Shown here in pieces: positions 7,553 through 26,574 of a stretch of DNA of 64,000 nucleotides. A program made the position numbers and the translations under genes. The DNA lies in assembly GCF_030219325.1 (NCBI RefSeq), contig NZ_CP126625.1:3398857-3462856 (forward strand). The letters run 5' to 3'. The stretch comes from Geothrix sp. (lineage in GTDB: Bacteria > Acidobacteriota > Holophagae > Holophagales > Holophagaceae). Each line of letters starts with the position of its first letter. Position 1 is the first letter of the stretch. The notes beneath the pieces are model-generated. The model had not been told where the DNA came from, did no database searches, and saw nothing but the letters and a program-made list of their open reading frames with translations.

Positions 7553-10042
7553 CTAGAACAACCTCAGCAGCGCGACATATCCGCTCACCGTCTTTACGCC
7601 GGCGATATCGCTTTGCAGGCCGATGCCCAGGTCCACGCGCACGGACGTGAACCACCAGAACCCCGGAAGGTCCCCGACAAGGCCCAGGCCTGTTACCCCG
7701 TATGTCTTCCCGTCATCGAGGCCCCGGGCCCGGCCATGCTCCAGGCTCACGGAAAGCCGGAGGTTCGGCCCGGTGGGAATCGCGAGGGCGGTCTTGGCGT
7801 AGGCCACCTGGTCGGCGGCGATGGCGTTGGAGCGGATGCCGGCGATGCGCACCATGGAGCCCAGCCCGCCCACGTCCAGGGAGTTGAACCGGTCGAAGGC
7901 GCGCCCCCCCACCCAGCCGGCTTCGCCGTGGAACCAGAACCCGGGCTTCACCTCCCGGTCCAGGCCGAGGCTGCCGCCATAGCGCTTGAAGTCCCCTCCC
8001 TCAGGTACGACCTGGGGATCCGCCGCCGTGCCGTAGGTGCCCTCGGGCCGCTTCCCCCACCCGTGGAAACCGCGGATCTGGAAGCCCCGGAACAGCCAGG
8101 AACCCTGCAGGGTGCCCACCTTCGTGAGCCCCGAGGGCGGCAGGGCGTAGCCCGGTGTGCGGTACTTGGTCTCTCCCTCGCTGTAGTCGTCGTAGAGGAA
8201 GTCGCCGCGGCCCTCCAGCCGGAAGCCCAGGCCCAGGTCGTGGCCCAGCTCCACGCCCGCCATGCCGAAGCGCCGGCCCACGCCATCCTTGTTGGCCAGC
8301 TTCCCGTCGATCACAGGCCGGTCCGTGCCCTTCAACAACAGGCCCATGGCATTGGCGCTGACATCGAAGCCGCCGAGGCCGCGGGGGATGGCGAGGTTGA
8401 TCGTGTCGAAGACCCCCGCCACGAGGGCGTTCAGCTGCACGCCCTTGCCGAAGGCGTTGTAGTCGAAATACACGAACCCGCCCAGGGGCATCACCGGGGG
8501 CGTCATGCCCGGATCCACCAGCACCAGCCCCGCCAGGGCCCGGCCGCTGCTCTTGGCCTTCTCGTCGATCTTCCGGGTGCCGTCCTCCTGGCGCGTGAAG
8601 TAGCGGGCGCCCTCCGGCGTAACCTTGAGCATGGTGTCATTCGAGGTGCGCGCGGCGTCCCGCTCGGCCAGGAAGTGGTCACTGTTCAGGGCGAAGTCGC
8701 GGTAGGTGAAGCGCCGCTGCACCTGCACCACGCCATCGGTGCTCACCCAGCGCTCGTAGGTCTTCACGGCCACGGGGCGCCAGACCCCGGGGGCCACGGT
8801 GCCGTAGGTGAGGATCTCGCGCTCGCTCTTCACCGTGCCCGGCAGGTCGTTCCGCTCGCGCCGTTCCACGAGGATCTTCCCGGTGGCCTCCTCCACCTCC
8901 AGCTCCCCCGCGTAGGCCAGGGGATCCGGACTCACCGGCTCGAAGCGCAGCAGGCGCCGGCCGGGGCCCGCGGGCCCGCCGTCCCGGTAGCGGTACCGCT
9001 CCGCCAGGCTGAGGGCCACGGGCAGGGACACGGACTGGCGGCTTTCGATGAGGGGCAGCTGCACCTCGCCCGTGAGGTTGGCCCTCACCCCGTTCAGCCG
9101 CACCTCCTTCTGCAGCAGCTCGGGCCAGTCCCCGGCCTGCTCGAAGTAGCCGAAGGTGAAGCCGATGTCCCCGCCGGGGCCCCGCGAGCCCTGGATGTGC
9201 AGGTCCAGGTCCGCCTTGGCCTGGAGGGTGCGGACGGCTGCCCGTGAGCGCAGGTGCGCGACGCGGACCTGCGCCAGCAGGGCGCCCACGTCGTAGGCGT
9301 CCGCCGCAGTCACCGCCACCTCGTGGCGCTCCTTCGGCAGGGGCACCGCGGTCCAGCTGCCATCCGCGAAGGTCCAGCGCTTGGCCTCCCCAGCCCGGTT
9401 GCGCAGGGTGAGGTCGCCCACCCCGCCCTCGACCTCCACGAACCCCTGGGGGATGAGCGCGGCGAGCTGCGCGGAGGAGCCTCCGGCCGGCACCACCAGC
9501 CGGCCCCCGTCACCCATCAGCGTCGCGGCCTGGGCGCCGGGGTCCTTCGGCAGCCAGAGGGTCCAGGCACGGCCGGGGAAGGTCTCCTGGGCCTGGGCCA
9601 GCTGGGTGCGCCAGAGCGTGGAATCGACGTTCAGGTCCGAAGGCAGCAGGGCCCCGCCATCCACCGCGCCCCAGGCCGTCTCGTCGAGGACGGGTACCGC
9701 TTTGGGATCGAAGGCCACGTAGAGCCGCTGGCCCGGAGCCTGGGCCTTGAGGGCCTGGGCGGCCGCCAGCAGGAGTGGGATGCGCGCCTCCCCCAGGGGC
9801 AGGCGGAGCCGCACGGCCGGGGCCTCCCGGAGCGCCGCCACCAGGGGGAGCCAGCGCTGCCGGGCGGCCTCCACCTGGGTGGCGTCCCGGTTGTCCCGAG
9901 GCAGCAGGGCGGTGGAGTCGGCCGTGGTCAGGTCCAGATCCACTGGTGGCGCCTCACCCACCCGCAGGGGGGCCGCCGGGGGTGCCTGGGCGACCAGCGA
10001 CAGCGTGAGCGTGGGAATCAGGGCGAAGGAAGGGCGCGGCAC
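7553..10042 (-). CDS. Large outer-membrane beta-barrel protein of unknown function
   Basis: 829 residues. The start is GTG (10040-10042) with GGAGG five bases upstream on the minus strand. A signal peptide (ALIPTLTLSLVAQA) leads into a soluble N-terminal half, a central region from about residue 255 to 490 that resembles LolA/LppX-type outer-membrane lipoprotein-sorting folds (long strands such as YAGELEVEEATGKILVERRE), and a C-terminal barrel of about 300 residues with alternating strands and a terminal Phe in YVALLRLF, the usual BAM recognition end. I do not recognise a named family. The 3' end has a relic duplicate at 7449-7488, and the upstream flank carries a MITE-like element that leaves the ribosome-binding site intact. 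Confidence 0.7.
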   Translation of the reverse strand: MPRPSFALIPTLTLSLVAQAPPAAPLRVGEAPPVDLDLTTADSTALLPRDNRDATQVEAARQRWLPLVAALREAPAVRLRLPLGEARIPLLLAAAQALKAQAPGQRLYVAFDPKAVPVLDETAWGAVDGGALLPSDLNVDSTLWRTQLAQAQETFPGRAWTLWLPKDPGAQAATLMGDGGRLVVPAGGSSAQLAALIPQGFVEVEGGVGDLTLRNRAGEAKRWTFADGSWTAVPLPKERHEVAVTAADAYDVGALLAQVRVAHLRSRAAVRTLQAKADLDLHIQGSRGPGGDIGFTFGYFEQAGDWPELLQKEVRLNGVRANLTGEVQLPLIESRQSVSLPVALSLAERYRYRDGGPAGPGRRLLRFEPVSPDPLAYAGELEVEEATGKILVERRERNDLPGTVKSEREILTYGTVAPGVWRPVAVKTYERWVSTDGVVQVQRRFTYRDFALNSDHFLAERDAARTSNDTMLKVTPEGARYFTRQEDGTRKIDEKAKSSGRALAGLVLVDPGMTPPVMPLGGFVYFDYNAFGKGVQLNALVAGVFDTINLAIPRGLGGFDVSANAMGLLLKGTDRPVIDGKLANKDGVGRRFGMAGVELGHDLGLGFRLEGRGDFLYDDYSEGETKYRTPGYALPPSGLTKVGTLQGSWLFRGFQIRGFHGWGKRPEGTYGTAADPQVVPEGGDFKRYGGSLGLDREVKPGFWFHGEAGWVGGRAFDRFNSLDVGGLGSMVRIAGIRSNAIAADQVAYAKTALAIPTGPNLRLSVSLEHGRARGLDDGKTYGVTGLGLVGDLPGFWWFTSVRVDLGIGLQSDIAGVKTVSGYVALLRLF

Positions 10043-14202: not shown

Positions 14203-15351
14203 ATGACCGCGACCCTTCCCATCCCCGCCCTGCTCCCCACTTACGCCCCCTATCCCTTCCCGCTCGTGCGAGGAGAGGGCGACCGGGTCTTCGACGACCA
14301 GGGCCGGGGCTGGTGGGACTTCTACGGTGGCCACTGTGTGTGCGCCACGGGCCACAGCCACCCCAAGGTGGTGAAGGCCGTGGCCAACCAGGCCGCCTCA
14401 CTGCTCTTTTACTCCGCCGCCGCCGCCCTTCCCGTGCGGGATCAGGCCGCGACCCAGATCACGGCTTTCGCGGGCATGGACTCGGTCTTCTTCTGCAACA
14501 GCGGCGCTGAGGCCAACGAAAACGCCCTGAAGCTGGCCCTGCTCCTCACGGGTCGCAAGCAGCTCGGCGCCTTCGAAGGCGGCTGGCACGGCCGCACCCT
14601 GCTGGCCCTGTCCGTCACCGACGATCCCAAGATCACCGAGCCCTTCGCCGACCAGCTGGTGCCCACGGTGCGGCTGCCCTTCGGCGACCTCGCCGCGCTG
14701 GCCGCCGCCGACTTCTCCGGCATCGCCGGCGTGATCCTCGAACCCATCCAGAGCATGGCCGGCATCAAGACTGCCTCCCGCGAATGGTTCCGGGCCCTGC
14801 GCGCCAAGTGCGACGCCTCGGGCACGCTGCTGATTTTCGACGAGATCCAGACCGGCATGGGGCGGATGGGAACGCCCTTCGCCGCCCAGTTCTATGGCGT
14901 GCGGCCCGACCTCATCACGTCGGCCAAGGGCCTGGCCTCGGGCGTGCCCATGGGCGCCCTGCTCATGACCGCTGCCGTGGCCTCCAAGCTCAAGGGCGGA
15001 GATCTGGGGAGCACCTTCGGCGGCGGCCCCCTGGCCTGCGCGGCCCTGTTGGCCACGGTGGAGGTCATCGCCCACGAAGGCCTGATGCCCAATGCCATGG
15101 CTGCCGCGGCCAGGCTGCGGAAGGAGCTCGTGGGCTCCGTGGTGACGGAAGTCGTGGGCGAGGGCCTGCTGCTGGGCCTACGCAGCGCCCATGCCGCCGC
15201 CCTCAAGAAGCACCTCCTGGCCCACCACATCCTGGTGGGCGGCTCGGGCGATGCCACGGTGCTGCGGCTGATGCCGCCCCTCAACGTCAGCGGCGAAGCC
15301 CTGAGCGCCCTCGTCACCGCCATCCATGCCTTCCAGCCGGAGCAGCCATGA
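14203..15351 (+). CDS. argD: N-acyl-ornithine aminotransferase (PLP-dependent)
   Basis: 382 residues from ATG 14203 (AGGA nine bases upstream); the frame is open further upstream and an in-frame ATG at 14176 is the only serious alternative. It belongs to class III aminotransferases and converts N-acyl-glutamate semialdehyde and glutamate to N-acyl-ornithine in the cytoplasm. Visible are the cofactor region FCNSGAEANENALKLA, the Asp of LLIFDEIQTGMGRMG and the PLP lysine in TSAKGLASGVPMGA. It is the first gene of the arginine operon and overlaps argF' by four bases. ArgD enzymes often accept both acetyl- and succinyl-ornithine, so it does not settle the acyl type. Confidence 0.9.
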   Translation: MTATLPIPALLPTYAPYPFPLVRGEGDRVFDDQGRGWWDFYGGHCVCATGHSHPKVVKAVANQAASLLFYSAAAALPVRDQAATQITAFAGMDSVFFCNSGAEANENALKLALLLTGRKQLGAFEGGWHGRTLLALSVTDDPKITEPFADQLVPTVRLPFGDLAALAAADFSGIAGVILEPIQSMAGIKTASREWFRALRAKCDASGTLLIFDEIQTGMGRMGTPFAAQFYGVRPDLITSAKGLASGVPMGALLMTAAVASKLKGGDLGSTFGGGPLACAALLATVEVIAHEGLMPNAMAAAARLRKELVGSVVTEVVGEGLLLGLRSAHAAALKKHLLAHHILVGGSGDATVLRLMPPLNVSGEALSALVTAIHAFQPEQP

Positions 15352-16340
15352 AGCACTTCACCCGCATCTCGGACCTGGGCCCCGCGGGAGTCAAGGAGAT
15401 CCTCGCCACGGCCGCCGAGTGGAAGCGCAACCGCCCCGGCGCCATCTTTGCCGACCGCATCCTGGGCATGGTGTTCTTCAACCCCAGCCTGCGCACGCGG
15501 GCCAGCTTCGAGGCGGCCATGCTGCGCCACGGCGGCCACGCCATCGTGCTGGAAGTGGGCGCGGGCACCTGGAAGCTGGAGGACCGCGACGGCGCCATCA
15601 TGAACGAGGACCGCGCCGAGCACGTGCGCGAGGGCGTGCCCGTGCTGGGCCGCTACGCCGACCTGCTGGCCGTGCGCACCTTCAGCCACGGCAACGGGGA
15701 TGCGGAGGATGAAGTCGATCCCGTCATCAACGCCTTCCGGCGCTTCTCCACGGTGCCGGTGCTGAGCATGGAGAGCGCCCGCGAGCATCCGCACCAGGGC
15801 CTCGCCGACCTGCTCACCATCCAGGAGGCCCACGGCAGCACGAAGGTGCCCGTGACCCTCACCTGGGCCCCGCACATCAAGCCCCTGCCCAAGGCCGTGC
15901 CCAACTCCTTCCTGCTGACGGCCGCGGCTTGCGGGGCGGAGATCCGCGTGGCCCATCCGAAGGGCTACGAGCTGGCACCCGAAGTGCGGGCCGAAGCCGA
16001 AGCCTACGCCGCCGCCACCGGCGGGAAGATCGTCTACACGACCGACCAGGACGCGGCCCTGGAAGGCAGCGCCGCCGTCTACGCCAAGGCCTGGGGACCT
16101 TCCACCAGCTCGGGCCTGGCTGCCGCGCCCATGGCGGACCTCGGCTCTTGGATGCCCACCGCCGCCCACATGCAGAAGGCCGCGAAGGAAGCCATCTTCA
16201 CCCACTGCCTGCCCGTGCGCCGCAACCTCGAAGTCCATGACAGCGTCCTCGACGGGCCCTGGAGCCGCGTCGTCGACGAGGCCGAGAACCGCTTCCACGT
16301 GCAGCGGGCCACCATCCACCACCTGCTCTCCCAGTCCTAA
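15348..16340 (+). CDS. argF': N-acyl-ornithine carbamoyltransferase, probably N-succinyl type
   Basis: 330 residues from ATG 15348 (ATGA overlap with argD). It transfers carbamoyl phosphate to an acylated ornithine to give N-acyl-citrulline. The carbamoyl-phosphate motif SLRTR is at 47-51, the second block is SMESAREHPHQGLADLL, and HCLPVRRN lies near the C-terminus. The block TWAPHIKPLPKAVPNSF marks the acylated-substrate branch rather than ordinary ArgF. In known enzymes one residue sets specificity: Glu92 in the Xanthomonas acetyl enzyme, Pro90 in the Bacteroides succinyl enzyme. The aligned residue here is Ala90 in EDRAEH; as I recall, replacing Glu92 with small residues including Ala makes the acetyl enzyme act on the succinyl substrate. 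Succinyl specificity is therefore inferred, not shown. Confidence 0.85.
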   Translation: MKHFTRISDLGPAGVKEILATAAEWKRNRPGAIFADRILGMVFFNPSLRTRASFEAAMLRHGGHAIVLEVGAGTWKLEDRDGAIMNEDRAEHVREGVPVLGRYADLLAVRTFSHGNGDAEDEVDPVINAFRRFSTVPVLSMESAREHPHQGLADLLTIQEAHGSTKVPVTLTWAPHIKPLPKAVPNSFLLTAAACGAEIRVAHPKGYELAPEVRAEAEAYAAATGGKIVYTTDQDAALEGSAAVYAKAWGPSTSSGLAAAPMADLGSWMPTAAHMQKAAKEAIFTHCLPVRRNLEVHDSVLDGPWSRVVDEAENRFHVQRATIHHLLSQS

Positions 16341-16360: not shown

Positions 16361-17287
16361 ATGCCCCTCTCCCCCAATCCCTACGCCGCCCTCAAGGAAG
16401 CCTCCCAGTACGTGCGGCTGTTCCGCGGCAAGACCTTCGTGGTGAAGGTGGGCGGCGAGGTCATCGCCGAACCCAAGATCCGCAAGGCCCTCTGCGAGCA
16501 GATCGCCCTGCTCTGGTCCTTCTCCATCAAGGTCGTGGTGGTGCATGGGGGCGGCGCCGAGCTGGACGCCGTCTGCGCCTCCATGAACATCCCCGTGGAG
16601 AAGGTGGCGGGCCGGCGTGTGACGAGCCCCGAGGTGCTGGACGCCGCCAAGATGGTCTTCGCCGGCCAGGTGCACATGGACCTGCTCTCGGAGCTGCAGG
16701 CCGCGGGCGTGCCGGCCGTGGGCCTCACCGGTCTCGATGCGGGCCTCGTGAAGGCCCACCGGCGTCCGCCCGTGGCCGTGATCCCCGATGGGGCCACCGA
16801 GCCCCAGCTGGTGGACTACGGCCTGGTGGGCGACATCGACGCCATCGATCCACATGTTCTCAGCCACCTGCTCGAGGGGGGGTTCGTGCCGGTGGTGGCG
16901 CCGCTTTCCGGGGGGGAAGACGGCGCCATTTACAACACCAACGCGGACACCATCGCCGCGAGCCTGGCCACCGCGCTGGGCGCCGAGAAGCTGTTCTTCC
17001 TGCTGTCGGTTCCGGGTCTGTTGAAGGACGTCGCCAAGTCCTCGTCGCTCATTCCCCACGCCACCCTGGAGGAACTGTCCGGTCTGGAGGCCAAGGGGGT
17101 GATCACCGGGGGCATGCGGCCCAAGATCACCGCCGTGAAGGCTGCGCTCCTGGGCGGCGTGCCCAGTGCCCACCTGGTGAGTGGCCTGGCCCCGGATGCC
17201 CTACTGGCGGAGATCTTCACCAACGAGGGCAGCGGGACGATGATCGTGGCCCCCGCGGTGGCGGCCACGCCCGCTGGGGCGCATTGA
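16361..17287 (+). CDS. argB: N-acyl-glutamate kinase
   Basis: 308 residues from ATG 16361 with GAGG five bases upstream. It phosphorylates N-acyl-glutamate, usually the arginine-controlled step. Amino acid kinase landmarks: FVVKVGGEV near the N-terminus, VVVHGGGAELD, the GRRVTS loop, NTNADTIAASLA and the C-terminal FTNEGSGTMIV. An N-terminal helix (YAALKEASQYVRLFRGK) like that of arginine-sensitive hexameric enzymes suggests feedback inhibition. It begins 20 bases after argF' and overlaps argE by one base (TGATG). Confidence 0.9.
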   Translation: MPLSPNPYAALKEASQYVRLFRGKTFVVKVGGEVIAEPKIRKALCEQIALLWSFSIKVVVVHGGGAELDAVCASMNIPVEKVAGRRVTSPEVLDAAKMVFAGQVHMDLLSELQAAGVPAVGLTGLDAGLVKAHRRPPVAVIPDGATEPQLVDYGLVGDIDAIDPHVLSHLLEGGFVPVVAPLSGGEDGAIYNTNADTIAASLATALGAEKLFFLLSVPGLLKDVAKSSSLIPHATLEELSGLEAKGVITGGMRPKITAVKAALLGGVPSAHLVSGLAPDALLAEIFTNEGSGTMIVAPAVAATPAGAH

Positions 17288-18354
17288 TGGGCCCCGCCGA
17301 GCTGCTCACGCGCCTGGTCGGCACGCCCAGCGTGTCGGGTGAGGAAGGCCCGCTGGCGGACCTGGTGCAGGATCTCCTCGCCACCCGGGGCTTCGAGGTC
17401 CAACGCCAGGGGCACAACCTCTGGTTCAGCCTCGGGAAGAAGGGCGGCTCCCGGCTCCTGCTCAACTCGCACCTCGACACGGTGCCCCCCTGCGCGGGCT
17501 GGGAGGGGGATCCCTTTGCGCCCGTCTGGCACGGCGCCCGCCTCCAGGGACTCGGCGCCAACGACGCCAAGGGCTGCGTGGCGGCCCTCCTGCTGGCCGC
17601 CTTCGAGCTGGCGAAACTGGACCTCGACGGGGAAGTGGTGGTGGCCCTCACCGCCGAAGAGGAGACCGGCGGCCAGGGCATCGCCACCATCCTGGGCCAG
17701 CTCGGCCCCTTCGATGGCGCCGTGGTGGGCGAACCCACGGGCCTGCGCATCTGCGCGGCCCAGCGGGGCCTCCTGATCCTCAAGTGCACCGCCCGGGGCC
17801 AGAGCGGTCACGTGGCCAACGCCCAGATGCTGGGTGCCGAGAACGCCATCCACAAGGCGGCCCGGGACATCGCCAAGATCGCCGCCATGGACTTCCCCGC
17901 CCACCCGCTGCTGGGCTCGCAGAAGGCCCAGGTCACGCAGATCCAGGGCGGCCTGCGGCGCAACCAGGTGCCGGATGCCTGCGAGTTCTTCGTGGACCTG
18001 CGCACCAGCCCCGAGCAGGACCACGATGCCCTCGCGGCCGGCTTCCAGCGGCAGCTGGAAAGCGAAGTCGCCATCCACTCCAAGCGCTACCTGCCCAAGG
18101 GCACGGATCCGGGCCATCCCATCGTCCGGGCGGCCCTCGCGGCCGCCGGCAAGGCCGGCCCCGTGGGCTCCGGCACCACGTCGGACTGGGCCTTCCTGGG
18201 GAGCATCCGGGCGGTGAAGGCCGGGCCCGGCGACACCTTCCGCAGCCACACCCCCAACGAGTACCTCACCCTGCCCGAGCTCGAAGCGGGCGTGGCCTTC
18301 TACGCTCAGCTGGTCTCCACCTTCTTCAAGCTGCAGGTGCCAAATGAAGCCTGA
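17287..18354 (+). CDS. argE: M20 family N-acyl-citrulline/N-acyl-ornithine deacylase
   Basis: 355 residues from ATG 17287, overlapping the argB stop; an upstream-open frame inside argB is a shadow. M20 zinc-site landmarks are LLNSHLDTVPP (first His and Asp), GANDAKGC (bridging Asp), ALTAEEETGG (catalytic Glu and ligand) and FRSHTPNEYL (final His). The form resembles Bacteroidetes ArgE more than E. coli ArgE. After an acyl-ornithine carbamoyltransferase, its substrate should be N-acyl-citrulline, giving free citrulline. A DapE (lysine pathway) role is possible by family but unlikely in this operon. It overlaps argH by 11 bases. Confidence 0.82.
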   Translation: MGPAELLTRLVGTPSVSGEEGPLADLVQDLLATRGFEVQRQGHNLWFSLGKKGGSRLLLNSHLDTVPPCAGWEGDPFAPVWHGARLQGLGANDAKGCVAALLLAAFELAKLDLDGEVVVALTAEEETGGQGIATILGQLGPFDGAVVGEPTGLRICAAQRGLLILKCTARGQSGHVANAQMLGAENAIHKAARDIAKIAAMDFPAHPLLGSQKAQVTQIQGGLRRNQVPDACEFFVDLRTSPEQDHDALAAGFQRQLESEVAIHSKRYLPKGTDPGHPIVRAALAAAGKAGPVGSGTTSDWAFLGSIRAVKAGPGDTFRSHTPNEYLTLPELEAGVAFYAQLVSTFFKLQVPNEA

Positions 18355-19702
18355 CGGAACAACCCTCTGGGCCAAGGACCTCCCCCTGGACGTGGCCATC
18401 CACCGCTTCACCGTGGGCGAGGATCCGGACACCGACCTGACCCTGCTGCCCTGGGACTGCCTGGGCAGCGCGGCCCACGCGAAGATGCTGGCGGCCACCG
18501 GGCTGCTGGAAACCGCCGATGCCGGCGCCCTGGTGCGGGGCCTGAAGCGCATCTCGAACCTCGCCCGGCAGAACGCCTTCCCCATTCCGCCACACCTGGA
18601 GGACGGCCACACTGCCATCGAGGCCGACCTCACCCGCAGCCTCGGCCCCGTGGGCCAGCGCATCCACCTGGGCCGTTCGCGCAACGACCAGGTCATCCTG
18701 GCCTTCCGGCTCTACCTGCGGGACGCCCTGCTGCGCCTGGGCCTCCGAGTGTCCGACCTGGCCGAGGCCTTCCTGGCCTTCGCGCGGGCGAACCAGGACG
18801 TGCCCCTGCCGGGCTACACCCACCTGCGCCGCGCCATGCCCAGCACCTTCGGCATGTGGGCCGCGGCCTTCGCCGAGGGACTGCTGGAGGAACTGGAGGC
18901 CCTGCAGTCGGTCTACCAGCGGCTCGACCGCTGCCCGCTGGGATCGGCCGCCGGCTTCGGCGTGCCCCTGCCCATCGACCGTGAACTGACGGCCAGGCTG
19001 CTGGGCTTCTCCAAGGTGCAGCGCAGCCCCATCGACGTGCAGAACAGCCGGGGCCGCCACGAGACGGCCATGCTCCAGTGGGCCGCGTCCACCGGCGGCG
19101 TCATCGAGAAGTTCCTGTGGGATGTGTCCTTCTACAGCACCGAGGAGTTCGGGTTCCTCAAGCTGCCGGACGCCTTCACCACGGGCTCGAGCATCATGCC
19201 CCAGAAGAAGAACCCCGACGTGGTGGAACTGGCCAGGGGCCGCTGCCGCGAACTGCGGGGCACGGCGGGCCTGGTGGAGCAGATCGCCTCCGGCCTGCCC
19301 TCCAGCTACCACCGCGACCTGCAGCTGCTCAAGCGCCCCGTCATCCTGGGCCTGCGCCAGGCGGATGAGCTCTTCGGCGTGCTGGTGCGGCTCATCCCCG
19401 CCCTCAGCGTGAACGGGGCGGCCACCGCCGCCGCCAGCACGGACGAGCTCTACGCCGCCCACCAGGCCTACGTCTACGTGCAGGGCGGCCTGCCCTTCCG
19501 CGAGGCCTACCGCAAGGTCGCCCAGCAGCTGCAGGACGGCACCTTCGCTCCGGACCGCGCCGCCCTCACCGCCACCCACCTCGGCGGCGCCGGCAACCTG
19601 GGCCTCGACGACCTCGCCGCCGACCTTTCCGCTGCGCGAACCTGGATCGAAGCCAAGCGCGAGGTCCATGTGGAAGCGGAGGCGGCGCTATGGGCGAACT
19701 GA
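18344..19702 (+). CDS. argH: Argininosuccinate lyase
   Basis: 452 residues, the usual length. It splits argininosuccinate to arginine and fumarate, the last step of the pathway. The fumarase-superfamily signature GSSIMPQKKNP is at about residue 284, with the HTAIEADL and GRSRNDQV regions that carry substrate-binding residues, and GYTHLRRAMPS with the catalytic His. The N-terminus (FTVGEDPDTDLTLLPWDC) looks like the Bacteroidetes branch. The ATG lies inside the end of argE. A 121-base gap with a palindromic repeat separates it from argG. Confidence 0.92.
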   Translation: MKPDGTTLWAKDLPLDVAIHRFTVGEDPDTDLTLLPWDCLGSAAHAKMLAATGLLETADAGALVRGLKRISNLARQNAFPIPPHLEDGHTAIEADLTRSLGPVGQRIHLGRSRNDQVILAFRLYLRDALLRLGLRVSDLAEAFLAFARANQDVPLPGYTHLRRAMPSTFGMWAAAFAEGLLEELEALQSVYQRLDRCPLGSAAGFGVPLPIDRELTARLLGFSKVQRSPIDVQNSRGRHETAMLQWAASTGGVIEKFLWDVSFYSTEEFGFLKLPDAFTTGSSIMPQKKNPDVVELARGRCRELRGTAGLVEQIASGLPSSYHRDLQLLKRPVILGLRQADELFGVLVRLIPALSVNGAATAAASTDELYAAHQAYVYVQGGLPFREAYRKVAQQLQDGTFAPDRAALTATHLGGAGNLGLDDLAADLSAARTWIEAKREVHVEAEAALWAN

Positions 19703-19823: not shown

Positions 19824-21011
19824 ATGAGCAAGCTCGCCGTCCTCGCCTTCTCCGGCGGCCTCGACACGTCCTTCTGCGTGTTCTACCTGAAAGAGCAGGG
19901 CTACGACGTGGCCACGGTCACGGTGAACACCGGCGGCTTCTCGCCGGAGGAATTGGCGCGCATCGAGGCCACCTCCCCGAAGCTGGGCGCCCTCAGCCAC
20001 ACCACCGTGGACGCCCGCGCCGGGCTCTTCGACGGCTACCTGCGCTACCTGATCTACGGCAACGTGCTGCGCGGCCAGATGTACCCGCTGTCCGTCTCCG
20101 CCGAGCGGGTCTGCCAGGCCCGGGCCGTGGCCGAGCTGGCCAAGGCCATGGGTGCCGCCGCCATCGCCCACGGTTCCACCGGCGCCGGCAACGACCAGGT
20201 GCGCTTCGACGTGGCCTTCCGTGCCCTGGCACCCGAGCTGGCGATCCTCACCCCCATCCGCGACCTGGGCCTGTCCCGGGCCGAGGAGATGGCCTACTGC
20301 GCCGAGCGCGGCCTGGTGTTCCCGGAGAAGACCAGGGACTACTCCATCAACGAGGGCATGTGGGGCACCAGCGTGGGGGGCCGCGAGACCCTCGACGCCT
20401 GGACCACCCTGCCCGAAGCGGCCTTCCCCGGCGGCATCATCGGCGCCCTGGCACCCAAGACCCTGACCCTCAGCTTCGATGAGGGCGTACCCGTGGCCCT
20501 GGACGGCAATGCCATGGATCCCGTCACCCTCGTCGCCCAGCTCAACGCCATCGGGCGCCCCTACGGCATCGGCCGCGGCGTGCACCTGGGCGACACCATC
20601 CTGGGCATCAAGGGTCGCGTGGGCTTCGAGGCCCCGGCGGCGCATCTGCTCATCGGCGCCCACCGGGAGCTGGAGAAGCTGGTGCTGAGCGGCAAGCAGC
20701 TCTTCTGGAAGGAGTCCCTGGGCAACCTCTACGGCAGCCTGCTGCACGAGGGCCACTTCTTCGATCCCCTGGCCCGCGACCTGGAGGCCTTCCTGCAGTC
20801 CAGCCAGGACCGCGTCTGCGGCGAGGTGCGCCTCACCCTGCACCCCCGCGCCTTCGTGGTGGAGGGCGTGCAGTCGCCCTACTCGCTGATGGACCCGCGC
20901 ATCGCCACCTACGGCGAGGCCAACAAGCTCTGGACCGGCGCCGAAGCCGCGGGCTTCGCGAAGGTCTTCGGCGTTCAGCAGACTTTGACACTCAAGGCAA
21001 AAGGCAACTGA
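19824..21011 (+). CDS. argG: Argininosuccinate synthase, Bacteroidetes-like type
   Basis: 395 residues from ATG 19824 (AAGGG upstream); the longer open frame upstream runs through the repeat and is not coding. It joins citrulline and aspartate using ATP. The PP-loop AFSGGLDTSFCVFYL is near the N-terminus, followed by HGSTGAGNDQVRFD and INEGMWGTSVGGRET. The order of blocks (TGGFSPEELARIE, GNVLRGQMYPLSVSAERV) matches by eye the Bacteroidetes type that travels with succinyl-ornithine carbamoyltransferase. Its stop is followed by a TCACCGCGGTGA palindrome and CCTTTTC before the next gene 34 bases on. Confidence 0.9.
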   Translation: MSKLAVLAFSGGLDTSFCVFYLKEQGYDVATVTVNTGGFSPEELARIEATSPKLGALSHTTVDARAGLFDGYLRYLIYGNVLRGQMYPLSVSAERVCQARAVAELAKAMGAAAIAHGSTGAGNDQVRFDVAFRALAPELAILTPIRDLGLSRAEEMAYCAERGLVFPEKTRDYSINEGMWGTSVGGRETLDAWTTLPEAAFPGGIIGALAPKTLTLSFDEGVPVALDGNAMDPVTLVAQLNAIGRPYGIGRGVHLGDTILGIKGRVGFEAPAAHLLIGAHRELEKLVLSGKQLFWKESLGNLYGSLLHEGHFFDPLARDLEAFLQSSQDRVCGEVRLTLHPRAFVVEGVQSPYSLMDPRIATYGEANKLWTGAEAAGFAKVFGVQQTLTLKAKGN

Positions 21012-21045: not shown

Positions 21046-22098
21046 ATGCGCATCCACGTCGACAAGCTCGCCTCGGTCACCCGCAACCTGCGGCTGGGCC
21101 GCACCCTGACCCTCGGCAGCGAAATCCTGCTCGAAGAAGGCTCCGTCATCGCCTGCAAGGTGCGGGGCGAGAAGAGCACCTACAACCAGCTGGAGGATCC
21201 CCACGGCCGCATGAGCACCCTGCATGACGGCGACATCCTCGTGGGCGCCCTGGGCCACCGCAACGCCCTGCAGGGCTACGAGGGCGTCATGCCCAAGGCC
21301 CTGAAGCCCGGCGACACCGTGAACCTGCTGAACATGGGCGGCGTCCTCGGCCGATGCCTGTCGCACAACCCCGACGTGGGCAAGCCCTTCGAGCTGGAGG
21401 TGCTGGGCCAGGTGCTGGTGTTCCCCGAGTTCCAGTCCCGCGCCGGCCAGCCCGCCCACATCCGCATGGGCGCCCTCAAGGGTACGGGCCTCTCTGCCCA
21501 CTGCCCGGTGGTGTACGTGGCGGGCACCTGCATGAACGCGGGCAAGACCGCCGCCGCCTGCGCCACCATCCGCCAGCTCAGCCGCGCGGGCTACCGGGTG
21601 GGAGCCTGCAAGCTCACGGGCGTCTCGCTCATGCGCGACGCCCTGGCCATGCGCGACTACGGCGCGGAAGTGGCCCTCGATTTCACGGATGCGGGCATCG
21701 TGTGCACCGATGCGGGCAGCGCCGCCGGCGTCTCGCACATCATCTTCTCGGAGCTGGCCTCCCATGGCGTGGATGTCATCGTGGCCGAGACCGGCGACGG
21801 CATCATGGGCGAGTACGGCGTGCAGGCCATCCTGCAGGATGCCGAGCTCATGGCCTTGAGCGGCGTGTTCATCGTCTGCGCCAACGACCCCGTGGGCGCG
21901 GCCGGGGCCGTGCACAACCTGACCTCCGCCTACGGCATCAAGACGGATCTCGTGGCCGGTCCCGCCACGGACAACCGCGTGGGCGAGCGCTTCGTCGCCA
22001 CCCTGGGCCTCCCCGCCCGCAACGCCCGGGCCGATGCGGATGCCCTCGGCCGCTTCGTGCTCGACCTCCTCGAGCCCAAGCTCGCGGCCAAGGTATGA
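21046..22098 (+). CDS. DUF1611-like P-loop protein in the arginine operon; candidate glutamate N-acyltransferase
   Basis: 350 residues. The N-terminal half (about 15-145) is beta-rich with DGDILVGALGHRNALQGYEG. The C-terminal half is a P-loop domain of the BioD/CobQ/MobB kind: Walker A GTCMNAGKT at 160-168, GACKLTG near 187 and VDVIVAETGDGIMGEYG at 242-258. This layout recalls DUF1611 (COG3367). One DUF1611 protein, DgcN of marine bacteria, is reported as a D-glutamate N-acetyltransferase. The gene lies between argG and argC, overlapping argC by four bases, and the cluster has no argA or argJ, so it may acylate glutamate at the first step. This is an inference; family membership itself is moderate, and an unrelated ligase or regulator is possible. 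Confidence 0.6.
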   Translation: MRIHVDKLASVTRNLRLGRTLTLGSEILLEEGSVIACKVRGEKSTYNQLEDPHGRMSTLHDGDILVGALGHRNALQGYEGVMPKALKPGDTVNLLNMGGVLGRCLSHNPDVGKPFELEVLGQVLVFPEFQSRAGQPAHIRMGALKGTGLSAHCPVVYVAGTCMNAGKTAAACATIRQLSRAGYRVGACKLTGVSLMRDALAMRDYGAEVALDFTDAGIVCTDAGSAAGVSHIIFSELASHGVDVIVAETGDGIMGEYGVQAILQDAELMALSGVFIVCANDPVGAAGAVHNLTSAYGIKTDLVAGPATDNRVGERFVATLGLPARNARADADALGRFVLDLLEPKLAAKV

Positions 22099-23093
22099 GT
22101 TCCGTGGATGTCCTCATCCTCGGCGCGTCGGGCTATGGCGGCGGAGAGCTGCTGCGGTGGCTTTCCAATCACCCGGCGGTAACCTCCATTCGCGGGACGG
22201 CGCGCAGCCACGCCGGCAAGCCCTTCCATGCCCAACACCCGAACCTGCGCGGCCTGGTCGACGGCACCTTCGAAGCAGCGCCGGACTGGGCGGCCCTGGC
22301 CCAGAGCGAGACCCCCGTGCTGTTCGCGGCCCTGCCCCACGGCGAGTTTGCCAAGCAGTGGCCCGACTTCCAAAGCGAGTGGGATCGCCTGGGGCTCACG
22401 GACAAGCTCACCATCATCGACCTCTCCGCGGACTTCCGCCTGGACCCCGCCTGGGTCTACGGCCTGGTGGACTGGCAGCCCGAGCGCATGAGGGGTGCCC
22501 GGCGCATCGCCAACCCCGGCTGCTTCGCCACGGCCCTGCAGTTGGCCCTGCTGCCCCTGGCCGAGTGGAAGCCGGCCTTCGTGGCCGTCACCGCCGCCAC
22601 GGGTTCCTCAGGGTCGGGCGCCGCGCCCAGCGACACCACCCACCACCCCACCCGTGCCAACGACTTCCGCGCCTACAAGATGCTCGGCCACCAGCACGAG
22701 GCCGAGGTGCTGCGCACCCTCGCCGTCGCGGGCTGGCAGGCGCCCCTCAGCTTCGTGCCCCAGAGTGCCCCCATGGTGCGTGGGATCTTCGCCACGGCCC
22801 AGTTCCCGCTGCCCGCTGGCGTAGTTGAGGACACCCTCAGGGCGCACTATGCAGCCTTCTACCGGGACCGTTTCTTCATCCGCATGGTGGAGGGCAGCCC
22901 CCGCGTGGCCGCCACCACCGGCAGCGCCTTCGCCGATCTTGGCGTCGCCGCCCGGAACGGCCACGCCGCCGTCATGGTCGCCCTCGACAACCTGGGCAAG
23001 GGCATGGCGGCCCAGGCCGTGCAGAACCTCAACCTGGCCCTGGGCCTGCCGGAATGGACGGGGCTGAAGGCTGCTTCGACCTTCCCCGGTTGA
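22095..23093 (+). CDS. argC: N-acyl-gamma-glutamyl-phosphate reductase
   Basis: 332 residues from ATG 22095 (ATGA overlap with the upstream gene). It reduces N-acyl-glutamyl phosphate to the semialdehyde with NADPH. The Rossmann motif GASGYGGGELLRWL is at the N-terminus; the catalytic Cys is in ANPGCFATALQL, followed by VTAATGSSGSGAAPSDTTHH, which binds substrate. Length is slightly below the type 1 average. It is the last gene of the operon and ends 13 bases before the convergent XRE gene; no terminator is evident there. Confidence 0.9.
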   Translation: MSSVDVLILGASGYGGGELLRWLSNHPAVTSIRGTARSHAGKPFHAQHPNLRGLVDGTFEAAPDWAALAQSETPVLFAALPHGEFAKQWPDFQSEWDRLGLTDKLTIIDLSADFRLDPAWVYGLVDWQPERMRGARRIANPGCFATALQLALLPLAEWKPAFVAVTAATGSSGSGAAPSDTTHHPTRANDFRAYKMLGHQHEAEVLRTLAVAGWQAPLSFVPQSAPMVRGIFATAQFPLPAGVVEDTLRAHYAAFYRDRFFIRMVEGSPRVAATTGSAFADLGVAARNGHAAVMVALDNLGKGMAAQAVQNLNLALGLPEWTGLKAASTFPG

Positions 23094-23718: not shown

Positions 23719-26574
23719 ATGACGCTCCTCGAAAGTGATCCCTCCCCTGAACCCGGGACGATGCCGCCCTGGGCCAGGTCTGCGGACTGCGTGGCGGTGG
23801 ACCGCTACCTCCTCGGCCCGGAGCTGGGCCGGGGCGGCATGGGCCGGGTGCATGCGGCCTGGGACCCGGTGCTCAAGCGCGTGGTGGCCCTGAAGCTGCT
23901 GCTGGGGCATGATCCCGACCTGCACCTCCGCCTGCTGCGGGAGGCCCGGACCCAGGCCAAGCTCGACCACCCGGGCATCTGCCGCATCCACGACCTGGGC
24001 CACTCGGAGGGGCGTCCCTACATCGCCATGCAGCTGGTGCAGGGCCGCTCCCTGGTGGACCTGCACCCCGAGCTGGACTTCCGGGCCATGGCCTCGGTGA
24101 TGGCGGACGTGGCGGAGGCCATCCACGCCGCCCACCTGGCGGGCCTGATCCACCGCGACCTGAAGCCGGCGAACATCCTCGTCGAGACCCGCCCGGATGG
24201 CAGCCTGCGCCCCTGCGTGGTGGACTTCGGCCTGGCCCGGGATCTCACCCTGCTGGACCAGACGCTGTCCTGGGCGGTGATGGGCACGCCCGCCTTCATG
24301 AGCCCCGAGCAGACGCAGGGCGAGGCCCTGGGCCCCAGCACGGACATCTACAGCCTGGGCGCCACCCTCTACGCGCTCGTCACCGGGCAGCCACCCTACG
24401 AGGGGTCCACGCTGGCGGGCCTCATCACGAACCAATCGGACTCGGGCGTGCGGGCCGTGCGGCGGCTCAACCCGGGGGTGCCGAGGGACCTGGAGACCAT
24501 CACCCTGAAGTGCCTGGAGCGGGAGCCAGCCAGACGCTACGGGACCGCCAAGGACCTGGGGGCGGACCTGCGCCGCTTCCTGGCGGACGAGCCCATCCAG
24601 GCCCGCCCCGTGGGCCCGCTCGGCAGGCTGTGGCGCTGGTCGAAACGCCGCCCGGCCCTGGCCGCCACCGCCACGACGGGAATTCTCGCCTCGGTGCTCC
24701 TGTTGGCCTGGAACGGCCACATCCGCGCCACCTCGCGCCTGCGGGAGGAAGCGGCCCAGCGCTTCGCCCTGGAGATCCGGGATGCGGAGCACCTGCTGCG
24801 CATCGAGCGCATGATGCCCCGGCATGACATCCGGCCGGCGGAGGCGCGGCTGCGGACGAGGATGGCGGCGATCCAGGATGAGATGGCCCGACTGGGCGGG
24901 TCCGCCCAGGGGCCCGCCCACTACGCCCTGGGCCGGGGGTACCTGGCGCTGCGGGAATACGCAGAGGCTGTCCGGCACCTGGCGGCCGCCTGGAGTTCGG
25001 GGTTCCAGGCCCCGGAAGTGGCGCACGGCCTCGCGCTGACACGGCTGAAGCAGTATGAGAACCGGAGGCTCGAACTCGTCGGCCAACTCGCCTCGCGGGA
25101 GGACCTGCGCAAAGTCGCCGCCGAGATGGTCCCGCTGGCCCTGACGTGGATGGCGCGCGCCAAAGGGGCCAGCGTGGACCACCCCGAGTACGGCATCGGG
25201 CTCGCCGCCCAGGCCGAAGGGCGCCACGACGAAGCGGATCGGCACTACGCCCTCGCCCTGGACCAGGCGCCCTGGCTGTTCGAGGTCTGGGGCTCCCGGG
25301 CCGCCAATGCCGTGGAGGCGGTGTTCGCGACCACCGACACGCCCGGTTACGACCGCATCCATGCCCAGTACAAGCGGGCCCTGGGCTACCTGAATGAGGC
25401 CGAGCAGATCGCCCCGAGCGATGACGAGGCCGTCCTCCGGCACTCGAACCTCGTCACCTCGGAGGGGATCTCCCAGGCGGCCCGCCACCGCCGCCGGGCC
25501 GAGCCCTTTCTGGAGGCCCACCGGCTGCTGGAAATCGCGCTGCGGATCCGCCCGGATGCCGAAGAGCCCCGCATCACCCTGCCGAACAGCGCCCTGCAGG
25601 TGGGATTCATCCAGCTGTCCAACGGGGGCGATCCAGCCCCCCTCGTGCGGAAGGCCGCCCAGGACCTGGAAGCCTTCGCCCCGCGCGAGGCCTGGACCCG
25701 CGAATCGGACTGGACCGCCGCCAAGGGGACCCTGCACCACCTCTGGTGGGTGGTCGCCGAGGCCGACCAGCGCTTCGGCCGCAGTCCCGACCAGGCCCTC
25801 GCCCGCGCCCGGCACTGGCGCGACCAGGTACCCGCCGACCCCCATCACGCCTTCTCCCGGCTCATTGAAGCGAAGCACCTGGCCGATCGGGGCGCGGACC
25901 CGAGGCCCATCTACGAAGAGACCCTCCAGGTCCTGGACAGCCTCGGCACCCGGGCCAACTTCAAGGGCACCGTGTTCTACAACAGCACCCTGGGACAGGC
26001 CCTCTTCGAGCGGGGCGCCTGGGAGTGGGCCCACCATCGCGGAGGCCAGGACGCCCTGCGCAGGGCTGCCCGGCAGCTGGAACCCAACCTGAAGATCGAC
26101 CCCCAGTTCGCCTACACCTTCTACCACCTGCCCAGGGCCCACGCTCTGCTCGCCCGGATGGCCCTCGCCGCGGGGCAGGATCCCTGGCCCCACGTGAAGG
26201 CCGCCCTCGCCACGGGGAAGCAGGGCCAGGCCATCAACCCGGACAATGCCAACCTGCACCTGGCCGCGGCGGATGCCCTCCTGGCCGAAGGCCAGGCGCG
26301 GGCCAGCGGAGGACTGGACGCGACCCGCTCCTGGGCGGACTGTCGCGCCGCCCTCGCCCTGGGGGAGCGGGCCAATCCCCGGGACTACCGGCTCAAGCTG
26401 CTGCAGGCGGAAGCGGAGCTCGCCGAGGCCGAAGCCGGCGGAAATTCCACCCTGCACCTTCAAGCCGCCCGGATCGCCTGTCAGGCCGGACTGGCGCTCA
26501 AGCGGAATGAACCGCAATTCCGTCGTCTGCTGGCCCGCCTGGGCAGCCCTGAGGCGGGGGCCCCCCGGCCCTGA
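23719..26574 (+). CDS. Ser/Thr protein kinase with membrane helix and TPR C-terminal domain
   Basis: 951 residues. The Hanks kinase is at about 29-290: Gly loop LGRGGMGRV, K59, HRDLKPAN (HRD 145-147), DFG 169-171 and GTPAFMSPEQ. A transmembrane helix follows at 312-331, then about 600 residues of TPR-like repeats with several HYALGRGYLALREYAEAVRH-type units, predicted on the far side of the membrane. This is the common acidobacterial and myxobacterial kinase layout. The 150-base gap to the divergent XRE gene must hold its promoter. Its target is unknown. Confidence 0.9.
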   Translation: MTLLESDPSPEPGTMPPWARSADCVAVDRYLLGPELGRGGMGRVHAAWDPVLKRVVALKLLLGHDPDLHLRLLREARTQAKLDHPGICRIHDLGHSEGRPYIAMQLVQGRSLVDLHPELDFRAMASVMADVAEAIHAAHLAGLIHRDLKPANILVETRPDGSLRPCVVDFGLARDLTLLDQTLSWAVMGTPAFMSPEQTQGEALGPSTDIYSLGATLYALVTGQPPYEGSTLAGLITNQSDSGVRAVRRLNPGVPRDLETITLKCLEREPARRYGTAKDLGADLRRFLADEPIQARPVGPLGRLWRWSKRRPALAATATTGILASVLLLAWNGHIRATSRLREEAAQRFALEIRDAEHLLRIERMMPRHDIRPAEARLRTRMAAIQDEMARLGGSAQGPAHYALGRGYLALREYAEAVRHLAAAWSSGFQAPEVAHGLALTRLKQYENRRLELVGQLASREDLRKVAAEMVPLALTWMARAKGASVDHPEYGIGLAAQAEGRHDEADRHYALALDQAPWLFEVWGSRAANAVEAVFATTDTPGYDRIHAQYKRALGYLNEAEQIAPSDDEAVLRHSNLVTSEGISQAARHRRRAEPFLEAHRLLEIALRIRPDAEEPRITLPNSALQVGFIQLSNGGDPAPLVRKAAQDLEAFAPREAWTRESDWTAAKGTLHHLWWVVAEADQRFGRSPDQALARARHWRDQVPADPHHAFSRLIEAKHLADRGADPRPIYEETLQVLDSLGTRANFKGTVFYNSTLGQALFERGAWEWAHHRGGQDALRRAARQLEPNLKIDPQFAYTFYHLPRAHALLARMALAAGQDPWPHVKAALATGKQGQAINPDNANLHLAAADALLAEGQARASGGLDATRSWADCRAALALGERANPRDYRLKLLQAEAELAEAEAGGNSTLHLQAARIACQAGLALKRNEPQFRRLLARLGSPEAGAPRP

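Follow-up and report, generated by a model that had tools for sequence, protein, structure and literature searches.

An arginine operon with an additional P-loop gene

The window (the whole stretch of 64,000 nucleotides of Geothrix sp. DNA that was analysed) carries an arginine operon in which argD, argF', argB, argE, argH and argG are followed by a gene for a P-loop protein and then by argC. The following features were assigned in and around this gene, all on the forward strand.

14203–15351, + strand: argD, acylornithine aminotransferase (TIGR00707, 329.8 bits)
15348–16340, + strand: argF', N-acylornithine carbamoyltransferase, with A90/P181/E295 (NF003384, 392.6 bits; alignment to 3kzc)
16361–17287, + strand: argB, acylglutamate kinase, single domain (TIGR00761, 215.5 bits; Pfam AA_kinase only)
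17287–18354, + strand: argE-like M20 deacylase (Pfam Peptidase_M20; ArgE and DapE models below cut-off)
18344–19702, + strand: argH, without a GNAT fusion (TIGR00838, 287.8 bits)
19824–21011, + strand: argG (TIGR00032, 309.6 bits)
21046–22098, + strand: P-loop protein, proposed glutamate N-acyltransferase, probably an N-succinyl-L-glutamate synthase (ORF; family and conserved context; AlphaFold2 model, pLDDT 95.8)
22095–22098, + strand: ATGA overlap of 4 bp between the stop of the P-loop gene and the start of argC (sequence)
22095–23093, + strand: argC (TIGR01850, 287.3 bits)

The P-loop gene encodes a product of 350 aa with the motif GTCMNAGKT at residues 160–168, and lies between the argG stop at 21011 and the argC start at 22095. 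When the ORF and sequence were re-read, the reading frame, motif, position and four-base overlap were all as given in a preliminary description of this DNA, and the profile assignments of argD, argF', argB, argE, argH, argG and argC bore out its statement that every other step of arginine synthesis is encoded in the cluster. The ATGA overlap suggests that the P-loop gene and argC are translationally coupled. Just downstream of the operon, a large ORF (23719–26574) resembles Ser/Thr protein kinases, and its sequence suggests a kinase domain together with a repeat region.

Conservation of the P-loop family and its neighbourhood

No Pfam or NCBIfam model recognised the P-loop protein above its cut-off. 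Its homologues were 87–98% identical within the genus and 65–70% identical in Myxococcota, a level of conservation similar to that of argF', argH and argB and above that of argC (51–55%); given this conservation at the sequence level, the ORF is far from a chance reading frame. Eighty close loci were kept, drawn from Holophagaceae, Myxococcota and gammaproteobacterial MAGs, and in every one (80/80) arg genes flanked the P-loop gene, with argG before it and argC after it nearly wherever the contig reached that far; in one locus (L129) it is preceded by argF-argB. All of the strong-clade homologues whose flanking sequence was examined (Acidobacteriota, Myxococcota, gammaproteobacterial MAGs) belonged to arg clusters, in nearly every case immediately before argC, and the remote acidobacterial members (31–42% identity) still precede argC. 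The expectation that the gene would track argF' was not upheld: several families carry clusters of the P-loop gene with argC, argD and argB that do not include argF' (L134, L161, L163, L164, L166–L168, L170, L183, L184 and L186). What stays constant beside the P-loop gene is thus the set of genes for the acylated part of the pathway (argC/argB), and not argF'.

A profile made from 39 diverse members gave at least 389 bits for full-length true members and 167–212 bits for a paralogous clade, with nothing full-length in between. Carriers made up 99 of 396 Acidobacteriota genomes and 58 of 179 Myxococcota genomes, and in the present searches Myxococcus xanthus was among the many myxobacteria that have the P-loop gene and lack ArgJ. 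The weaker clade (29–36% identity) was considered as a set of orthologues and rejected; it was set aside as paralogous because it is never found in arg clusters, occurs together with ArgJ and is separated from the true members by the gap in scores. In addition, a fragment 87% identical to the Geothrix-type gene was found in a genome from a different family, where it sits at the end of a contig (G109:C221:1-567) and is probably assembly contamination.

Known glutamate acylases in the Geothrix genome

According to a published genome survey, most Holophagaceae (Geothrix, Holophaga) lack an N-acetylglutamate synthase (PMC11561045). We searched the Geothrix genome, which consists of one contig of 3.73 Mb and is 96.65% complete. 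The ArgJ profile (PF01960) had no match in this genome, whereas the control was positive in 10 of 14 genomes. Pfam found no fused GNAT domain on any arg gene of the operon and, since ArgB and ArgH are both single-domain proteins by Pfam, neither an NAGS/K nor an H-NAGS fusion exists. The vertebrate-like NAT domain (PF04768) was without a match in Geothrix and in all control genomes alike, which makes this search uninformative.

A profile search of the whole genome identified about 20 GNAT proteins. In an NCBIfam scan of these proteins, a kind of scan that a distant GNAT could escape, none came near the cut-off of an N-acetylglutamate synthase, the top scores being 26 bits against a cut-off of 154 (PRK07757), 23 against 180 (PRK07922) and 21.6 against 280 (CG3035 family). 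The preliminary statement that ArgA, ArgJ and GNAT genes are missing is thus correct for the cluster; for the genome it has to be amended as to GNATs, of which there are about 20, while the genome-wide check returned no ArgJ, no GNAT resembling an N-acetylglutamate synthase and no kinase or lyase fusion.

Mutual exclusion of the P-loop gene and ArgJ

Among the Acidobacteriota, ArgJ was present in 144 of 396 genomes and in none of the 99 that carry the P-loop gene. The same pattern was seen in Myxococcota (ArgJ in 77 of 179 genomes, and in 0 of 58 carriers), and in the carriers reached via loci outside Acidobacteriota, gammaproteobacterial MAGs included (0 of 9). Genome-level p-values are overstated by shared ancestry, and the fairer measures are the repeat in a second phylum and the family-level figure: of 87 acidobacterial families, 19 had carriers, 30 had ArgJ and none had both (Fisher p = 2e-4). 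As an internal control, the paralogous clade and ArgJ were found together in five acidobacterial genomes, so the exclusion of ArgJ is specific to the clade found in arg clusters. Exclusion in two phyla would be expected if the P-loop protein replaces the acylating enzyme, and not if it has an accessory role.

About ten argF' genomes of Acidobacteriota, mostly of one family, had neither the P-loop gene nor ArgJ. In most of them argR stands directly before argC, at the usual place of the P-loop gene (L171–L178, L180), and a replacement synthase sought beside argC/argB in these clusters did not turn up, the neighbours there being ArgR, small proteins that look exported, or none at all; nor did a short NAGS score above cut-off in the argF' genomes without the P-loop gene. 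These organisms must either have another synthase outside the cluster or be auxotrophic, and there may be a further glutamate acylase in the genomes of L171–L178 and L180. Since these related genomes show no synthase in the cluster, one could also lie elsewhere in Geothrix, and this is the chief ground for caution about the P-loop protein. Glu at the specificity position was seen in the argF' cluster of one genome only (G064); this genome lacks the P-loop gene, and its argB, at ~435 aa, is of a length consistent with a kinase-synthase fusion.

Structure and conserved residues of the P-loop protein

The AlphaFold2 model comprises two domains, and residues listed below as invariant are so across 39 homologues.

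21046–21480, + strand: N-terminal beta-rich domain, ~residues 1–145 (model; invariant Y46, E50, R72, A74, G77, G80 and P83)
21508–22095, + strand: C-terminal SIMIBI-type P-loop domain, ~residues 155–350 (model; invariant K189, D198, E248-x-G250-D251-G252 and D281)
21523–21549, + strand: Walker A motif GTCMNAGKT, residues 160–168 (invariant G160, M163, G166, K167 and T168)

Assignment to the SIMIBI class follows from the Walker A residues G160, G166, K167 and T168, which were present in 39 of 39 homologues, and from the matches listed by Foldseek and VIA, which are SIMIBI proteins. The top VIA match was the DUF1611 protein TM0796 (2g0t; Z 17.0, rmsd 2.8, 173 residues), followed by CTP synthase and BioD (Z 14–16), a second DUF1611 protein, Ava_3511 (2obn; Z 14.9), and DgcN (7xrj; Z 14.3, rmsd 3.5, 182 residues); differences of less than 1 Z unit are ties, and CTP synthase and BioD lie within 1–2 units of 2g0t. 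The N-terminal domain modelled alone (pLDDT 84.7) gave no convincing fold match, either with Foldseek (best E 0.8) or with VIA (best Z 3.0, the LexA C-domain), a lack of matches that is no proof of a new fold. As invariant residues occur in both domains (Y46, E50 and R72 in the first; K167, K189, D198, E248, D251 and D281 in the second), the active site, we infer, may lie between them.

At the sequence level the relationship to DUF1611 was more distant. The P-loop protein scored 15.4 bits with PF07755 against a cut-off of 25 (23.3 for the best relative tried), the same profile had no match in the whole Geothrix genome, and the DUF1611_N model (PF17396) did not match the protein at E up to 10, although HMMER filters can hide weak matches. 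Given a score below cut-off and the lack of DUF1611_N, the protein is better regarded as a distant relative or sister family of DUF1611, and the earlier label 'DUF1611-like' describes its fold, which matches 2g0t, 2obn and DgcN, and not its Pfam membership. GNAT domains were also sought with Pfam at E up to 10 without a match, in keeping with a P-loop fold, and the ArgJ domain (PF01960) is absent from the protein. With the protein or either of the two alignments as query, searches of PDB sequences returned only matches to the Walker A region or at chance level.

DgcN resembles the P-loop protein in its SIMIBI C-terminal domain and in acting on the amino group of glutamate, as is proposed here for the P-loop protein, but it is catabolic, uses D-glutamate and is only 14% identical where the two align. 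We know of no link between DgcN and argC. BioD and the synthetase domain of CTP synthase have the P-loop fold in common with the protein and match its profile weakly at the Walker A region, but the match is limited to the P-loop domain and both serve other substrates and pathways. DgcN is among the structural matches, at a score that does not rise above those of BioD or CTP synthase. Because these match equally well, the fold gives the class and permits a DgcN-like activity, and does not indicate acyl transfer specifically.

Proposed function and alternative explanations

Taken together, these observations argue that the P-loop protein probably catalyses the otherwise missing first step of arginine synthesis, as an L-glutamate N-acyltransferase. 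It would acylate the amino group of L-glutamate, and the resulting N-acyl-L-glutamate would then be processed by ArgB, ArgC and ArgD. By analogy with DgcN, the reaction would most likely be acyl-CoA + L-glutamate -> N-acyl-L-glutamate + CoA, in which the P-loop would bind the phosphate groups of CoA or a nucleotide. A P-loop is not expected of an acyl-CoA transferase, which counts against this explanation.

It is possible, though rather unlikely, that the same step is carried out by the P-loop protein as an ATP-dependent ligase, which would phosphorylate free succinate or acetate for attack by the amine of glutamate. BioD and CTP synthase, whose folds match as well as that of DgcN, use phosphorylation to activate their substrates, and the invariance of the Walker A motif, K189, D198 and E248-x-G-D-G in 39 homologues is in line with such chemistry, as is the lysine of a KLTG motif after the P-loop, which we take to occupy the position of BioD's conserved lysine. 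Against ligation stands the classification of DgcN, the nearest enzyme with an assigned glutamate reaction, as a D-glutamate N-acetyltransferase in the acyltransferase class (EC 2.3.1.312; PMC11747546).

The identity of the acyl group was assessed from argF'. Acetyl-type enzymes (AOTCase) have E92, N185 and K302, whereas those of the succinyl type have A/S/P/V/Q, P and V/I/E at these positions (reviewed in PMC4581275). Geothrix argF', aligned to 3kzc, has A90, P181 and E295 at AOTCase positions 92, 185 and 302, all three of the succinyl type, and the first position was occupied by Ala in 51, Pro in 10, Gln in 3 and Thr in 1 of 65 related loci. Because the argF' residues are of the succinyl type, the product in Geothrix (and Myxococcus) is more likely to be N-succinyl-L-glutamate; the route would then resemble the Bacteroidetes pathway, whose presumed synthase is also found in the arg locus. 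The original idea that the P-loop protein acylates glutamate is largely supported, with the correction that the group is probably succinyl and not acetyl. On this residue comparison, the NCBIfam name for Geothrix argF', N-acetylornithine carbamoyltransferase (392.6 bits against a cut-off of 288), is probably a misannotation that extends to most close relatives.

Transfer of acetyl by the P-loop protein, with the argF' residues uninformative on the acyl group, nonetheless has this NCBIfam name in its favour, together with the report of DgcN as an N-acetyltransferase (title of the 7xrj record; PMC11747546) and the Thr, which belongs to neither type, at the specificity position in most of the distant acidobacterial members in family f22. 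We consider it doubtful, given that Geothrix has the succinyl type at each of the three diagnostic positions and that Ala or Pro is found at the first position in 61 of the 65 close relatives. The argF' genes with Thr at this position include those of L154, L156, L160, L162, L165 and L171–L178.

A quite improbable account is that another enzyme, a GNAT or an unknown one, acylates glutamate and that the P-loop protein is a regulator, assembly factor or feedback sensor. The SIMIBI class does include the metal-enzyme chaperones HypB and MeaB, the ~20 GNATs of the genome are without an assigned role, and some related genomes must have a synthase outside the cluster. These points are countered by the exclusion of ArgJ in two phyla, which extends to clusters without argF', and by the lack of resemblance of any Geothrix GNAT to a known synthase. 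That the gene is an unrelated passenger of the operon is contradicted by its conserved context, with a place kept in several phyla, 65–70% identity across phyla and a 4-bp overlap with argC, and is extremely improbable.

Relation to known arginine pathways

The N-succinylglutamate synthase of Bacteroidetes (BT3761 / Cabys_1732) shares with the P-loop protein its proposed reaction, pathway and place in an arg locus; it is presumably of the GNAT type and is set apart from the P-loop protein by this description. The presumed Bacteroidetes-type synthase is encoded in the arg locus, which in Caldithrix is argAGCBEH (PMC5317091, PMC7311316). The reviewed synthases comprise ArgA, the NAGS/K fusion, S-, O-, H- and C-NAGS and ArgJ, none of which is described as a P-loop protein (PMC4490483); they perform the same first step and have no detectable sequence relation to the protein studied here. 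In a literature search with few subscription journals covered, we found nothing tying DUF1611, COG3367 or the P-loop family to arginine.

In arginine synthesis the P-loop family may well form a third structural type of glutamate N-acyltransferase, beside GNAT and ArgJ, consisting of a SIMIBI P-loop domain and a new N-terminal beta domain, with N-succinyl-L-glutamate as its product and possibly driven by ATP, in much of Acidobacteriota and Myxococcota and some Gammaproteobacteria. DUF1611/DgcN-like proteins already provide examples of the fold and of a related reaction; the pathway would be new for P-loop enzymes of this kind. If this is correct, it would close the gap recorded for most Holophagaceae as a lack of N-acetylglutamate synthase (PMC11561045), bear on the many myxobacteria that carry the P-loop gene without ArgJ, Myxococcus xanthus included, and put a name to an enzyme family that is outside all general libraries. 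It would also add another non-homologous answer to a much-studied step of amino-acid synthesis, suggest that the use of succinylated arginine intermediates extends beyond Bacteroidetes, where they are known, to other phyla, and assign to DUF1611-like P-loop enzymes, which are poorly understood, a part in primary metabolism that can be tested.

Paralogues outside arginine clusters

The paralogues (L135–L148) have a two-domain layout like that of the P-loop protein, no Pfam match and a place outside arg clusters. Their neighbours vary and include ABC-transporter-like and M20-peptidase-like genes. In two cases a paralogue adjoins an M20 deacylase-like gene (L143:6938-8146, and L146 near 8768–9328), an arrangement suggesting that these paralogues act on N-acyl amino acids in pathways other than arginine synthesis.
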